DNA of 31,477 nt from a virus: IMG/VR virus record IMGVR_UViG_3300044846_001402, positions 1-31,477 of that record; one strand, written 5' to 3'. Both the position numbers and the translations under genes were made by a program. Positions 20,456 to 24,852 of this stretch are shown here, piece after piece. Each line of letters opens with the position of its first letter. Within the stretch, counting starts at the first letter, position 1. The notes beneath the pieces are model-generated. The model searched no databases and had not been told where the DNA came from. It worked only from the letters and a program-made list of their open reading frames with translations.

Positions 20456-20598
20456 TCACATATAAAGCAACATACAGAGCGAAGGTGGATGGCAAGTGGA
20501 GAGTCATGCACAGAGTATTCCAGGCCTATGATATGAATCATGCAATCAGAGTGCTCGATATGTGGGATCCATTGATCATTAAAATCGAGAAAGTATGA
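20452..20598 (+). CDS. Small basic early protein
   Basis: A 48-residue ORF with ATGA overlaps on both sides, which supports its reality. Sequence runs MITYKATYRAKVDGKWRVMH, then a helix (DMNHAIRVLDMWDP) and a short end. It is beta-hairpin-plus-helix-like and basic. Function unknown. Confidence 0.6.
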   Translation: MITYKATYRAKVDGKWRVMHRVFQAYDMNHAIRVLDMWDPLIIKIEKV

Positions 20599-21230
20599 AG
20601 ATTACAGAAAAAATCACAGTTACGAATGAGGATAACATGGAGCTCATGGCGAGGTGTCCAGATAATTATTTTGATCTCGCCATTGTGGATCCTCCGTATG
20701 GGATTGACATTGCAAAATGGGATAGTATTGATTCAAAACCAAATCAAGAATACTTTGACGAACTTTTTAGAATATCAAAAAATCAAATTGTATGGGGTGG
20801 AAATTATTTTAATTTGCCACATTCGGAAGCTTGGATATGTTGGGATAAAACAATGAAAAATGGTAAAATGGCACTTGGAAAAGGTTTTAAAAGTGAATTT
20901 GAGTTAGCTTGGACAAATACAGATAATAAAGCTACAATGATTCATTTGACACATGACGGTAATATACAAGGTTTTAACGGTGGTTCTGTAAATTACCAAT
21001 ATAAAACAATACACCCAACGCAAAAACCCGTTTTACTTTATAAATGGCTTTTAGATAAATACGCAAAAGAAGGTGATAAGATCCTGGATACTCACCTGGG
21101 ATCTGGAAGCATAGCCATCGCATGCCATGAGTATGGATTCGAGCTCACAGCATGTGAACTGGATGAGGAATACTACCTTAAAGCTGTGGAGAGAATAAAG
21201 AATCATGTATCCCAACAAAAACTTTTTTGA
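20595..21230 (+). CDS. DNA methyltransferase (N6-adenine or N4-cytosine), beta order
   Basis: The 211-residue enzyme carries the catalytic motif DPPYG (residues 32-36) near the N-terminus and the AdoMet-binding motif DTHLGSGS (165-172) near the C-terminus, with IHPTQKP before it. That circular order is typical of the beta class of amino-methyltransferases. Motif I is THLGSGS instead of FxGxGT, a form I recall from other phages. It probably modifies phage DNA against host restriction. Bases 20700-21075 differ in codon style from the flanks and lack GATC, so the middle, which includes the target-recognition region, was probably exchanged. Its target is unknown, and no nuclease partner lies beside it. 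Confidence 0.85.
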   Translation: MKITEKITVTNEDNMELMARCPDNYFDLAIVDPPYGIDIAKWDSIDSKPNQEYFDELFRISKNQIVWGGNYFNLPHSEAWICWDKTMKNGKMALGKGFKSEFELAWTNTDNKATMIHLTHDGNIQGFNGGSVNYQYKTIHPTQKPVLLYKWLLDKYAKEGDKILDTHLGSGSIAIACHEYGFELTACELDEEYYLKAVERIKNHVSQQKLF

Positions 21231-21231
21231 T

Positions 21232-21417
21232 ATGAATACAAAACAATATTACATTATCGAGTGCGGAGTGAATGAGATTGATTTCGCACTGGAGCTACTG
21301 GCGGAAATTAAAAAAGAAGGTCACTACTATGTGCTGAATGTCACCATGCACATGGAAGCTGTGAGCATGAAGAGAGTTACCAGGGAGGAGTTTAACAAAT
21401 TTAACGAATACGCATAA
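21232..21417 (+). CDS. Small protein, unknown
   Basis: I start at 21232 (MNTKQYYIIECGVNEIDFAL), one base after the methyltransferase stop; an upstream in-frame ATG at 21205 inside that gene is less likely. The 61-residue product is a compact alpha/beta protein (ELLAEIKKEG, then YYVLNVTMHMEAV). Its last base overlaps the ATG of the next gene. No family recognised. Confidence 0.55.
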   Translation: MNTKQYYIIECGVNEIDFALELLAEIKKEGHYYVLNVTMHMEAVSMKRVTREEFNKFNEYA

Positions 21418-21839
21418 TGGCAAGTGTAAAACAACTAATCAAGCTCGCAGAAGAGCACAAAATCAATCGCAGATGCAGAAATCGAGAGCTGGTATATAAA
21501 AGATATTATCTGTTCAGTGAACTTCGCAAGGAGCTCACTCTGGAGGCCATTGCCAGATTATTCGAAATGAATCACAGCACAGTGCTGTATGGACTGAAGC
21601 AACATGATACATTTATCAGAATGAATGATCGCATTTATATCAATACTGTGGCTGATTTATTCGAGAGAGTAAACGAATTCAATATTCGAGATATGGATCC
21701 ATCAAATGTGCATATGAAGATTATCAATGATGAGAGCCAATTTATCACCATGGAGATATACCTTCACACAAAGCATGCGGATCTGTACAGAGACAATCAA
21801 GGAGTGATCAGCAGAGAGGTACTAAAGGAGATGCTATGA
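21417..21839 (+). CDS. Orphan DnaA domain IV-like DNA-binding protein
   Basis: The 140-residue protein lacks the AAA+ part of DnaA. Residues 21-64 (RNRELVYKRYYLFSELRKEL, then LEAIARLFEMNHSTVLYGLK) match the layout of the DnaA C-terminal DNA-binding domain: a basic helix, a turn, and the signature helix with HSTVLYG (53-59), comparable to DHTTVLHA in bacterial DnaA. The C-terminal 70 residues are of unknown type. A free-standing DnaA box-binding domain in a replication region suggests origin recognition or interference with host DnaA. It lies about 260 bases upstream of the repeats at 22095-22287, its most obvious candidate target. Similarity is by eye. Confidence 0.7.
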   Translation: MASVKQLIKLAEEHKINRRCRNRELVYKRYYLFSELRKELTLEAIARLFEMNHSTVLYGLKQHDTFIRMNDRIYINTVADLFERVNEFNIRDMDPSNVHMKIINDESQFITMEIYLHTKHADLYRDNQGVISREVLKEML

Positions 21840-22093
21840 GAGAGAAAATCAGAAGGATGAGCTGTATTGTGTACATGCTTAAAGTAAAGCCGCACAGCAT
21901 TGATCAGATCACTTCCAGGATCAATCATATGACTGGAATGGAATATCATCGGAGCTCCATTGAGAAGGATATCAGCATGCTCAGAGAGGAATTCGAATGC
22001 CCAATTGAAAGGAATGAGCAAAATCGCCTGGTGATCCTGGAGGAGTATTCATTCATTGAGAAGGTGATTGAATGGATTGAATTCTATCAGTGA
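21836..22093 (+). CDS. Winged-helix DNA-binding protein
   Basis: An 85-residue protein with a helix-turn-helix in residues 14-52 (YMLKVKPHSIDQITSRINHM, then YHRSSIEKDISMLREEFECP). Helix 3 (RSSIEKDISMLREEF) and the following strand resemble the HTH_11 fold used by DeoR- and WYL-type regulators. No effector domain follows. It starts inside the last four bases of its predecessor and ends immediately before the repeat region. It is therefore a candidate repressor acting on those sites or on the downstream replication genes. Confidence 0.65.
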   Translation: MREKIRRMSCIVYMLKVKPHSIDQITSRINHMTGMEYHRSSIEKDISMLREEFECPIERNEQNRLVILEEYSFIEKVIEWIEFYQ

Positions 22094-22094
22094 C

Positions 22095-22135
22095 TAGGTG
22101 TAAAAAAAGTGTCAAATTTTTACACTTTACACCTA
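22095..22135. repeat. Large imperfect dyad (inverted repeat)
   Basis: TAGGTGTA (22095-22102) pairs with TACACCTA (22128-22135), and the inner AAGTGT (22107-22112) with ACACTT (22122-22127); four A bulge out and the loop is nine bases. The outer arms contain the same AGGTGTA core as the repeats at 22234-22266. There is no T run behind, so it is no terminator. It suits a protein-binding dyad or origin hairpin. Confidence 0.7.
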
Positions 22136-22233
22136 TCAAGTAAAAAAAATGAACATGAAATTTTTTGAAAAATCGTTTTTTTTTTGCTTTACACTGCCAA
22201 AAAACGCTGTATCCTTTGATATGATTGGCTTTG

Positions 22234-22287
22234 AGGTGTAAAAATAGGTGTAAAAAGGTGTAAAAATTACTGTCAAAAAATTACACC
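22234..22287. repeat. Iteron-like direct repeats AGGTGTAAAAA
   Basis: AGGTGTAAAAA occurs exactly at 22234-22244, 22246-22256 and 22256-22266 (starts 12 and 10 bases apart, roughly one helix turn). A fourth exact copy lies at 22096-22106. Reverse copies of the GGTGTAA core lie at 22129-22133 and 22281-22287, with a shorter TTTACAC at 22188-22194. The whole non-coding stretch 22094-22384 is AT-rich. Spacing near one turn and the position between DnaA-like and primase genes suggest replication iterons or operators. Confidence 0.72.
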
Positions 22288-22354
22288 ACAGATAAAAGAA
22301 AATTGTATAAATGAAATAAATGTATAAACGCAATAATTTTATGGATCATTGCTG

Positions 22355-22362
22355 TACATTTG
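22355..22362 (+). promoter_or_regulatory. Bacteroidota-type -7 element (TACATTTG)
   Basis: TACATTTG fits TAnnTTTG and ends 22 bases before the ATG at 22385. A correctly spaced TTG is not seen. It lies directly downstream of the iteron-like cluster, so a protein bound to the repeats could control it. Confidence 0.5.
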
Positions 22363-22384
22363 ACGAAATCATTAAAAATTAAAT

Positions 22385-22615
22385 ATGAAAAAACGACTAA
22401 TTGTCAGAAATTTAAGAGAATTTTTTGAATCAAATGTGAATAATCCATTCACACATCTTGCAACATTAGAGAGAGAGATCATGATCAGTGCACATCCAGA
22501 TCTGGAGATTGAGATTCAATCAACTGATGGCTGGATATTGTTTTGTCAAACTGGTATGAAGGTGGCAGAGGATGGATCATTAAACTATATTTATCAATTT
22601 ATCACTTCCAGATGA
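22385..22615 (+). CDS. Small protein, unknown
   Basis: A 76-residue protein (MKKRLIVRNLREFFESNVNN, with a strand pattern near 45-60 ending in WILFCQTGMKV). No known motif. It is the first gene behind the repeat region and shares an ATGA overlap with the primase/helicase gene, so it may be a replication accessory. Confidence 0.6.
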   Translation: MKKRLIVRNLREFFESNVNNPFTHLATLEREIMISAHPDLEIEIQSTDGWILFCQTGMKVAEDGSLNYIYQFITSR

Positions 22616-24852
22616 AGCTGCCAATATCAAGGATCAATAGATTGATTGATGATGGATATAGTGTCATCACAATCGGAGATAAAAAGGTACCTAATATCAA
22701 GTGGAAGGAATTCCAAACCAGGGCCATGTCGAAGGAGGAATTCGCAAAGCTTTATGATCTCCCTTCCACAATGGGCCAGGGCATCTGCACTGGATATGAT
22801 GGCCTGGAGGTGATTGATATCGATCTCAAAACTCTCCCAACTTTACAAGCACAGCAAGAATTCTGGAAGGAATATCTCACATTTTTGAAGGATAATATCG
22901 CTGATTTTGATGAGAAATTTGTGATATACAAAACCATTAACAATGGATATCACATTCTATACAAGTGCGAGCTGATCCAGGGCAATCAGAAACTGGCAAA
23001 GCTTCAAAATCAGCCAGAGGCCATCATCGAAACGAGAGGCATCGGAGGATATGTATTCATCTATGATAAAAAGGTGACAGCTCTGGGATATTCTGAGATC
23101 AAGCAAATCAGCATCAAGGATAGAGAGGTGTTAATGGCCATCTCCAGATATTTCGATTACAAGGAGCCAGTGGAAGAGCAAGCTCCAGAGCATGTGCCAG
23201 AGGATTCCATCTCACCATGGGCCGATTTCAATCAACGCAATACAGTATGGGAGCTCATCCAGGATGATTTTACCATAGTGCGGAGATTGAAGGATAAGCA
23301 AGTGGTAAAGAGACATGGTGCAACATCAGAGCATAGCGGATATATTTACAATAATTCTGGCAATCTCTTCCTCTTTACAACTGGCACCATATATCCAGCC
23401 GAGAAGATCCTATCTCCATTCGCCATCTATGCCTGGAGATTTCACAATGGTGATATCAAGGAAGCATCCAGGGATCTATATGCCAAAGGATATGGATCTC
23501 GCCATGTAAAGAAACCAGCTCCATCTGATTATTCACCAGCTGATATATCCATCGATGCCAATGAGCTGATATTCCCTATTGATATATTCCCATCAGACAT
23601 CCAGAGATACATGCTCGAATGCCATCGCACTCTGAACAGCTCCATCGATTACATGGGATGTTCGATGATGTGGCTTCTGAGCATCATCATCGGTAACTCA
23701 ATTAAGATCCAGGTGAAACGTGGATGGATTGAATCTGGCATCCTTTGGATGGCTATCGTAGGGAGGCCTGGTGTGGGTAAAACTCCGAATATCAATAATA
23801 TCATATTCCCTCTCCAGAAGGCCAATAATAACGAAATCAAGACCTATATCAAGCGCCTAGATGCCTATCGAGAATATATGGATAAAGATAAAAAGGAGAG
23901 AGAAGGTGAGGAGCAACTGAGGAAGCCGATCAAGACTCAATTCATTGCATCTGATATCACTCTGGAGGCATTGGTGGAGCTTCATGAGGAGAATAAGAAT
24001 GCGGTGGGAGTATTCAAGGATGAGCTCGCTGGCTGGCTGAAGGATATGAATAAATATCGAGCTGGATCTGATCTTGAATTCTGGCTGTCATCCTGGAGCA
24101 ACAAGGGAGTGGCGCTCAATCGTAAAACTTCAAAGAGCTCATTTGTTGAATCACCAGTGATCCCAATCCTGGGAGGTATTCAGCCAGGCATCCTCAATCA
24201 ATTCTATACTGAAGAGAATAAAGATAATGGATTCATTGATCGTATTCTCACATGCTATCCAGATCTCGATGTGGAGGAGTATAATGATAATGAAATGGAT
24301 GAGGGCCTTCTCCAGTGGTATGAGGATTTTATCATCGATATGTACCAGAGAGTGAAGCGCCATATCGTGGTATATGACAATGATAATGAAATCACATCAA
24401 TCATCGCCACATTCAGCACCAAGGCCCAGGAGGAATGGAAGCGGATCTTCAATGAGATTACAGTGATGCAAAATTCACCGATGGAAAATGAATACATGAA
24501 GAGCATGCTCCCAAAGCAAAAGAGCTATATTCCCAGATTTGCACTTCTGATCAATACACTGGATACCATGACTGGCCAACATGATTATGATGTGAACTAT
24601 ATCACCAGAGAATCATTACTGAAGGCCGAGCGCCTATCCAGGTACTTTATCAACATGGCCAAAAAGGTCAAGATGCAATCATCGGAGACCTTCGAGATCA
24701 AAAAGGTGATGAATGTGAATAAGCTGAAGAGCAAAAAGGATCAAGTGCAAGAGATGTTCAAAGCGAATCCAGAATTCAATCGGAGCCAGATGGCTGATCT
24801 CCTTGGGATCTCAAGGCAAACAATTCAAAACTATATCAATGAGATTAAATAA
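22612..24852 (+). CDS. Primase-polymerase fused to helicase (DUF3987-type)
   Basis: I start at 22612 (MKLPISRINRL), which overlaps the previous stop by ATGA; 746 residues. The N-terminal domain (about 1-200) has AEP primase-polymerase signs: EVIDIDLK with Asp69 and Asp71 in a DxD pattern, NGYHILYKC (111-119) and ETRGIGGYV (140-148). The central part (about 330-620) resembles DUF3987 helicases: Walker A GRPGVGKT (384-391) and acidic Walker B in VFKDEL (Asp470, Glu471). The C-terminus (about 723-746, SQMADLLGISRQTIQNYI) is a helix-turn-helix. It can prime, unwind and perhaps bind the origin, and is the only visible replicase-type gene. DNA synthesis beyond priming probably relies on the host polymerase. 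Confidence 0.85.
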   Translation: MKLPISRINRLIDDGYSVITIGDKKVPNIKWKEFQTRAMSKEEFAKLYDLPSTMGQGICTGYDGLEVIDIDLKTLPTLQAQQEFWKEYLTFLKDNIADFDEKFVIYKTINNGYHILYKCELIQGNQKLAKLQNQPEAIIETRGIGGYVFIYDKKVTALGYSEIKQISIKDREVLMAISRYFDYKEPVEEQAPEHVPEDSISPWADFNQRNTVWELIQDDFTIVRRLKDKQVVKRHGATSEHSGYIYNNSGNLFLFTTGTIYPAEKILSPFAIYAWRFHNGDIKEASRDLYAKGYGSRHVKKPAPSDYSPADISIDANELIFPIDIFPSDIQRYMLECHRTLNSSIDYMGCSMMWLLSIIIGNSIKIQVKRGWIESGILWMAIVGRPGVGKTPNINNIIFPLQKANNNEIKTYIKRLDAYREYMDKDKKEREGEEQLRKPIKTQFIASDITLEALVELHEENKNAVGVFKDELAGWLKDMNKYRAGSDLEFWLSSWSNKGVALNRKTSKSSFVESPVIPILGGIQPGILNQFYTEENKDNGFIDRILTCYPDLDVEEYNDNEMDEGLLQWYEDFIIDMYQRVKRHIVVYDNDNEITSIIATFSTKAQEEWKRIFNEITVMQNSPMENEYMKSMLPKQKSYIPRFALLINTLDTMTGQHDYDVNYITRESLLKAERLSRYFINMAKKVKMQSSETFEIKKVMNVNKLKSKKDQVQEMFKANPEFNRSQMADLLGISRQTIQNYINEIK

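Follow-up and report, generated by a model that had tools for sequence, protein, structure and literature searches.

A candidate iteron origin in a metagenomic virus and the C-terminal helix-turn-helix that probably reads it

Between a stop codon at position 22093 and an ATG at 22385, the 31,477-nt virus contig analysed here (the whole stretch is referred to as the window) contains a 291-bp non-coding gap (22094-22384) in which a short sequence is repeated many times. This raises the question of what the repeats do and which protein recognizes them. An earlier note had taken them for a candidate replication origin, with the products of two genes upstream, at 21417 and 21836, as the proposed binders. 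An iteron-type origin remained the best explanation, while these two binders had to be abandoned, since the repeats did not track with them. Comparison of related sequences makes it very probable that the repeats at 22095-22287 are origin iterons, which a helix-turn-helix (HTH) at the C-terminus of a PrimPol/MCM-like initiator-primase-helicase, encoded at 22612-24852, would bind as double-stranded DNA. The comparison shows that the iteron cluster travels with the replicase gene and that the repeat unit follows the recognition helix of the gene product.

The repeat array and its neighbouring genes

Four exact copies of AGGTGTAAAAA, all on the + strand, were present within 171 bp, as the earlier note had counted, with starts at 22096, 22234, 22246 and 22256 (138, 12 and 10 bp from start to start, which places three of them 10-12 bp apart); the whole 31,477-base record held no further exact copy. 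The 41-base dyad and the reverse core copies claimed in addition were also located, at least four inverted cores being present in the same gap. The most frequent 7-mer of the gap was GTGTAAA/TTTACAC (seven copies, plus a terminal TTACACC). Among 5000 dinucleotide-preserving shuffles of the gap the maximum for any 7-mer was five copies, so that seven was never reached, nor did any other 291-bp segment of the record have as high a 7-mer count. The A+T content was 75% in the gap and 59% in the record. An Rfam search of the window gave nothing at the gathering threshold.

The left group of units coincides with the dyad (22095-22135), whose 10-bp arms (TAGGTGTAAA and TTTACACCTA) are separated by 21 bp. 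It contains one forward unit (22096-22106) and two units on the - strand (TTTTTACAC, 22117-22125; TTTACACCT, 22126-22134), and was found at the equivalent position in relatives. To its right lies a spacer with about 78-80% A+T (22137-22187), a candidate melting region, followed by a lone central core, TTTACAC, on the - strand (22188-22194). The right group consists of three direct + strand AGGTGTAAAAA units (22234-22266; starts at 22234, 22246 and 22256, 12 and 10 bp apart), and the array ends with an inverted core on the - strand, ATTACACCA (22279-22287; its TTACACC at 22281-22287). Both the lone core and the terminal core are present in relatives L005 and L008. Analysis of GC skew, proposed earlier as a check, was uninformative here: with nearly every gene on the same strand, the cumulative curve was monotonic and gave no origin signal.

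The neighbouring genes, all on the + strand, were as previously claimed. The gene at 21417-21839 encodes a 140-aa protein resembling DnaA domain IV (Pfam Bac_DnaA_C at E = 3e-5, which does not reach the curated cut-off), that at 21836-22093 an 85-aa protein (the winged-helix protein of the earlier note, and its second candidate binder), and that at 22612 the Prim-Pol/DUF3987 protein. A further gene (22385-22615), to whose 76-aa product no function was assigned, lies between this last gene and a candidate promoter of the 22385/22612 operon, TACATTTG (22355-22362, + strand), about 68 bp to the right of the iterons; where searched, the 76-aa protein was confined to the relatives closest to the window (57-100% identity). 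The TACATTTG octamer occupies an equivalent place in L049-L053 and L055, and fits the -7 element of Bacteroidetes promoters (TAnnTTTG). A gene for an adenine/cytosine-type DNA methyltransferase lies at 20595-21230, two genes upstream of those next to the origin. The clues to the host of this 31-kb contig were solely the Bacteroidetes-type promoter element and the relatives found in Bacteroidota MAGs. No close DNA relatives were found among isolated phages. At the protein level there were only partial matches, to phages of Cellulophaga and Arthrobacter and to fragments of faecal phages, so no isolated phage was found for testing; plasmid matches covered DUF3987 only, and in part.

That the 21417 or the 21836 protein binds the repeats would be in keeping with their position next to the array and with the weak match of the former to the DnaA C-terminal domain. 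Their identity and that of the repeat unit are, however, doubly dissociated. In L052 the 21417 protein is 98% identical to that of the window and the repeat unit is GTGGAAAG instead; in L050 and L051 it is just 42-44% identical and the GTGTAAA repeats are unchanged, L050 retaining them even though it lacks the 21836 gene. Between L010 and L012 the 21417 and 21836 proteins are 96% and 98% identical, respectively, and the repeats are unrelated. Among the relatives collected by searching with the DnaA-IV-like protein, L005 and L008 have the window's repeats; L006 and L007, with a 98% identical DnaA-like protein, have a similar gap layout and the unit GTGGAAAG. The units GTGTGCAC/GTGTGAAA were found in L010, L016, L017 and L022, and AAATCGG units in L012, L013, L020 and L023-L025, in which an unrelated 791-aa BT4734_N/PriCT/DUF5906 protein replaces the DUF3987 protein. 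Because L052, L050, L051 and the L010/L012 pair uncouple the two upstream proteins from the repeats, relatives having the same genes without these repeats, the finding that the earlier note had named as refuting its reading, do literally exist as far as its two binders are concerned. Nearly all the remaining relatives with the cluster, moreover, lack both genes. Binding by either protein is thus highly unlikely, and it would be the downstream replicase, rather than the genes upstream, that sets the unit, since near-identical upstream proteins accompany different units. A DnaA-type origin was rejected on the same grounds, as the unit does not follow the DnaA-like protein (98% identity with different units; 42-44% with the same units).

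In L018 (5640-6180), two origin modules lie in tandem, the one with AAATCGG units being placed 5′ of a GTGTGCAC/GTGTGAAA module with a DUF3987 replicase. The 791-aa replicase cognate to the former is absent from this 34-kb record, and the arrangement looks like a replicon replacement caught midway.

The downstream replicase and its repeat cluster in relatives

The gene at 22612-24852 (+ strand) encodes a 746-aa protein with a PrimPol domain (residues about 1-184), a DUF3987 domain (about 324-690) and an HTH (708-745). Pfam detected Prim-Pol with E = 0.001 in the window protein (below the cut-off) and 3e-7 in that of L010, and the fold aligned with pRN1 ORF904 (1rni; VIA-align Z 15.8), NrS-1 also being matched. 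The DUF3987 domain aligned with MCM helicases over about 270 residues (VIA-align Z about 15, rmsd about 4), a score well above the typical background, and among solved helicases MCMs came nearest to residues 324-690; the model gives this domain an MCM-like AAA+ fold and makes it a predicted helicase. The AlphaFold2 (AF2) model had a pLDDT of 80, and a model of the isolated HTH domain one of 90. The HTH (24733-24846, + strand) is tri-helical, with AF2 helices at residues 708-718, 724-731 and 735-745, the third of which is the putative recognition helix (24814-24846, + strand) and contains R735 and N740, the two residues whose covariation with the iterons is strongest (see below). A PDB look-up with the isolated HTH yielded no match over the background expected for helical domains, and therefore no HTH subfamily is claimed. 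Residues 708-745 would be the iteron-binding domain, so that one protein would combine the helicase with an origin-binding domain, the latter at its C-terminus.

Relatives were collected using the DUF3987 protein as query, and the flanks of the replicase gene in 189 full-length loci were examined for clusters, a cluster being defined by a 7-mer that is present six times or more within 350 bp. A cluster was present beside the gene in 176 of the 189 (84 upstream, 92 downstream): in 79 of 86 loci in a first scan (47 at the 5′ side, 32 at the 3′ side) and in 97 of 103 further full-length loci in a second (37 and 60, respectively), although the scans overlap in part and the 189 loci do not equal independent viruses, the non-redundant set (<97% identity) having 101 members. 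As controls, one of 430 shuffled flanks and none of 86 gene bodies reached six copies. Loci with a weak cluster or none include L057, L073, L094, L172, L175, L222 and L223. Clusters contained 7-16 units. The earlier note had advised searching related genomes for the spacing of the unit, and this spacing did recur: in 55 relatives, distances between units on the same strand peaked at 10, 11 and 12 bp (48, 77 and 31 cases, respectively). In 53 of these 55 the cluster was more A+T-rich than its own locus. The A/T-rich region by which iteron origins are known is thus found in the window and in its relatives, as is a cluster of short repeats about one helical turn apart beside the initiator gene.

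The right iteron group ends about 70 bp upstream of the TACATTTG promoter element, itself conserved in relatives, so the repeats could have a regulatory role instead of, or beside, that of an origin. They might then be a transcriptional operator through which the initiator HTH, or another regulator, autoregulates the 22385/22612 operon. That the cluster may stand on either flank of the gene speaks against an operator of the promoter alone: in 92 of the 176 relatives it is found on the 3′ side, at about 2.3 kb from the promoter of the gene, and 7-16 copies grouped around an A/T-rich stretch exceed what an operator needs. An operator in place of an origin is hence considered unlikely.

For the iteron origin favoured here, we infer the physical binding, melting, helicase loading and priming, and with them the origin role itself; the steps after binding are drawn from the identity of the domains and from analogy with SaPI Rep, Cch2 and P4 alpha. 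Several copies of the initiator would occupy the two iteron groups flanking the A/T-rich stretch and, once bound, would assemble the AAA+ helicase ring; the ring would open the DNA, on which the N-terminal PrimPol would then synthesize primers. Since PrimPol, AAA+ and HTH domains are present in one chain, it is proposed that a single protein serves as initiator, helicase and primase.

Two further features of these regions were recorded. A palindromic box, TTGATWATCAA, is present inside the iteron clusters of many relatives, often twice and about 115-130 bp apart (seen in the iteron regions of L072, L083, L091, L097, L100, L106 and L113). It also occurs in an unrelated AAATCGG-type module (L012:5640-5980) and is absent from the window. 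Exact TGATNATCA was found at 1.26 per kb inside clusters and 0.06 outside, and the box is possibly a site for a host factor. The unrelated BT4734_N/DUF5906 replicases have short repeat clusters upstream as well (L036:445-612, unit TTGTCAC; L040:5351-5521, GGGCACA; L012:5746-5828, AAATCGG), which suggests an initiator-iteron logic in a second replicase family.

The recognition helix and the repeat unit

If the HTH reads the iterons, differences between iteron units should follow differences between HTHs. Among 59 non-redundant members, the distance between iterons followed that between HTHs when the rest of the protein was controlled for (partial r 0.33, reached in none of 2000 permutations); with the HTH controlled for, the correlation with the rest of the protein was 0.04. 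Of 631 variable columns, N740 and R735 showed the strongest covariation with iteron bases, and T737 and Q736 were in the top 11; all four lie in the third HTH helix (735-745) of the AlphaFold2 model. The shuffling in the covariation test did not model phylogeny, and the automatic alignment of units was ambiguous in orientation for near-palindromic TTTAAAC units.

A better control was the comparison of windows within the protein, which is independent of unit orientation and is the strongest available because all windows share one phylogeny. The unit of each of 101 members was predicted from the closest member not belonging to its clade, using 8-residue windows along the whole protein. Windows at the recognition helix alone predicted the unit with a score of 0.61 (at residues 733-735), compared with a mean of 0.31 (sd 0.04) for all windows, 0.393 for the best one outside residues 715-746, and 0.34 for the 690-residue body. 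For 42 held-out members, the HTH-nearest relative was a better predictor of the unit than the body-nearest one (Wilcoxon p about 0.002), a difference that fell to p = 0.078 once training relatives with >65% body identity were removed. In the window's own clade, GTGTAAA pairs with the helices SRQTIQNY and SRQTINNY, and GTGGAAAG with SRQTIKNW and SRQTINQW. At the level of sequence comparison, specific binding of the repeats by the initiator HTH is strongly implied, and the recognition helix of the PrimPol/DUF3987 protein appears to specify the iteron unit.

These results bear on two other readings. The NrS-1 PrimPol, a structural relative, primes at 5′-TTTGGTTA-3′ and 5′-GTG-3′ (PMC8718748), and GTG is present in many of the units described here, which might thus be single-strand template motifs for primer start by the PrimPol. 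The covariation of the unit, however, is with the recognition helix at the C-terminus, residues of the PrimPol or the linker showing none, and units occur on both strands 10-12 bp apart, as expected of double-stranded DNA binding. This makes template motifs a very unlikely explanation of the repeats, even if template priming may be an additional function. A DNA packaging (pac/cos) or partition site is hardly credible. The HTH does have weak sequence matches to terminase small subunits and weak structural ones to ParB (Z about 5), but these are within the range of any HTH, and the cluster travels with the replicase gene, its unit following the replicase's own HTH.

Natural exchanges provide pairs in which the HTH and the iterons differ together. 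The L113 and L114 proteins are 99% identical over residues 1-690 and differ in the HTH (recognition helices SRTQIYRY and SLQMIYKY, respectively), as do their 3′ iterons (GTGTAACAT and TTTAAACT, the L114 type being TTTAAAC); the DNA that flanks the swapped stretch is about 90% identical on either side. The bodies of the L069 and L072 proteins are 94% identical and their HTHs differ. Their iterons, which lie 5′ of the gene and 2.2 kb from the HTH codons, were exchanged in register (CTTTACA to GGTTGTCA) with unchanged spacers, and L081 and L082 showed a similar pattern. It is quite possible, if somewhat short of probable, that these replicons work as a lock and key in which the recognition helix and all 7-16 iterons have repeatedly switched together under diversifying pressure, yielding many mutually exclusive specificities. 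Either an HTH-iteron cassette would be exchanged as a whole (L113/L114), or the units would be replaced one at a time, in register and with the spacers untouched (L069/L072, L081/L082), and the pressure may come, for example, from incompatibility, superinfecting relatives or origin-hijacking satellites. This reading includes a putative amino acid-base code, in which R735 goes with G and, at position 740, N goes with A, R with CA and K with CC.

Related systems and a conserved leader

The arrangement can be compared with those of several known initiators. The SaPI ori has two repeat sets flanking an A/T-rich stretch, and its Rep/ori pairs are specific. The alpha protein of satellite phage P4 unites primase, helicase and a C-terminal origin-binding domain, as the protein described here would, and likewise acts at an iteron-type origin (ori/crr); to our knowledge it has no full-length homology to the 22612 protein. 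In lambda, the O initiator and its iterons change together between related viruses.

Primase and helicase activity have been described for the P4 and SaPI replication proteins (PMC7145576). As described in PMC7581432 for SaPI Rep (Ubeda et al. 2007), the C-terminal domain of this helicase recognizes iterons beside its own gene; in SCCmec Cch2 the C-terminal domain of the helicase binds direct repeats (iterons) beside the gene (PMC7581432). Since both proteins bind iterons adjoining their own genes through C-terminal domains, the present system would work like SaPI Rep/ori or P4 alpha, a likeness of arrangement and not of membership. As in SaPI Rep, the helicase belongs to a mobile element and would recognize short adjoining iterons through its C-terminus. 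Unlike it, the present protein consists of a PrimPol, an MCM-like DUF3987 domain and a simple tri-helical HTH, and its iterons lie 5′ or 3′ of the gene, with a unit that varies across dozens of lineages. Cch2 shares the C-terminal recognition of adjoining iterons, but Cch2/CCPol-MP are a separate helicase and primase-polymerase, with an ATPase of another family.

The same kind of domain order, DUF3987 followed by a C-terminal WH, is found in the PrimQH/All3500 AEP families. Kazlauskas et al. (2018) predicted a helicase function for this DUF3987 and proposed the WH as a possible origin-recognition domain (PMC5862659). That paper names no origin or iteron (the word 'iteron' does not occur), and the candidate sites and specificity residues identified here go beyond its description. 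The N-terminal PrimPol fold fused to a helicase is shared with NrS-1 PrimPol and pRN1 ORF904; in NrS-1, site choice was ascribed to the PrimPol/HBD reading a single-stranded motif (PMC8718748), whereas here specificity would reside in a C-terminal HTH of the double-stranded DNA type. Geminivirus Rep and its iterons, according to PMC12548392, change together between related viruses. This co-change resembles that seen here, as does that of lambda O, but both initiators are unrelated to the present one and geminivirus Rep nicks DNA for rolling-circle replication.

Among the papers retrieved, none combined iterons and DUF3987. Many phages and mobile elements encode DUF3987 proteins, and replication origins for them were, as far as we could find, not previously known. 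The present result offers a candidate origin, its probable reader protein and the putative specificity residues in a family that was encountered here almost exclusively among metagenomic viruses. More than 100 natural initiator-iteron pairs are provided as well, some with proteins 94-99% identical outside the DNA-binding end. With such near-identical pairs it can be tested directly how a single HTH scaffold is adapted to a new DNA sequence, and in what way an initiator changes together with a dozen of its sites while replication is kept.

A conserved leader of about 90 nt, outside the window, was found mostly directly upstream of the replicase gene (L012:5870-5958, L010:4510-4600, L069:206-297, L072:2894-2985, L073:144-235 and L032:3196-3285). 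It had no Rfam match. Its predicted fold comprises a hairpin and a long stem with a kissing loop (17 pairs by RNAalifold, 10 of them showing compensatory changes), and on visual inspection the hexamers of the two loops were perfectly complementary in six different versions. In L069, L072 and L073, the hexamer of the first loop recurs immediately ahead of the start codon, which suggests translational control. A covariance model of the leader detected more copies, many of them directly before the replicase gene.
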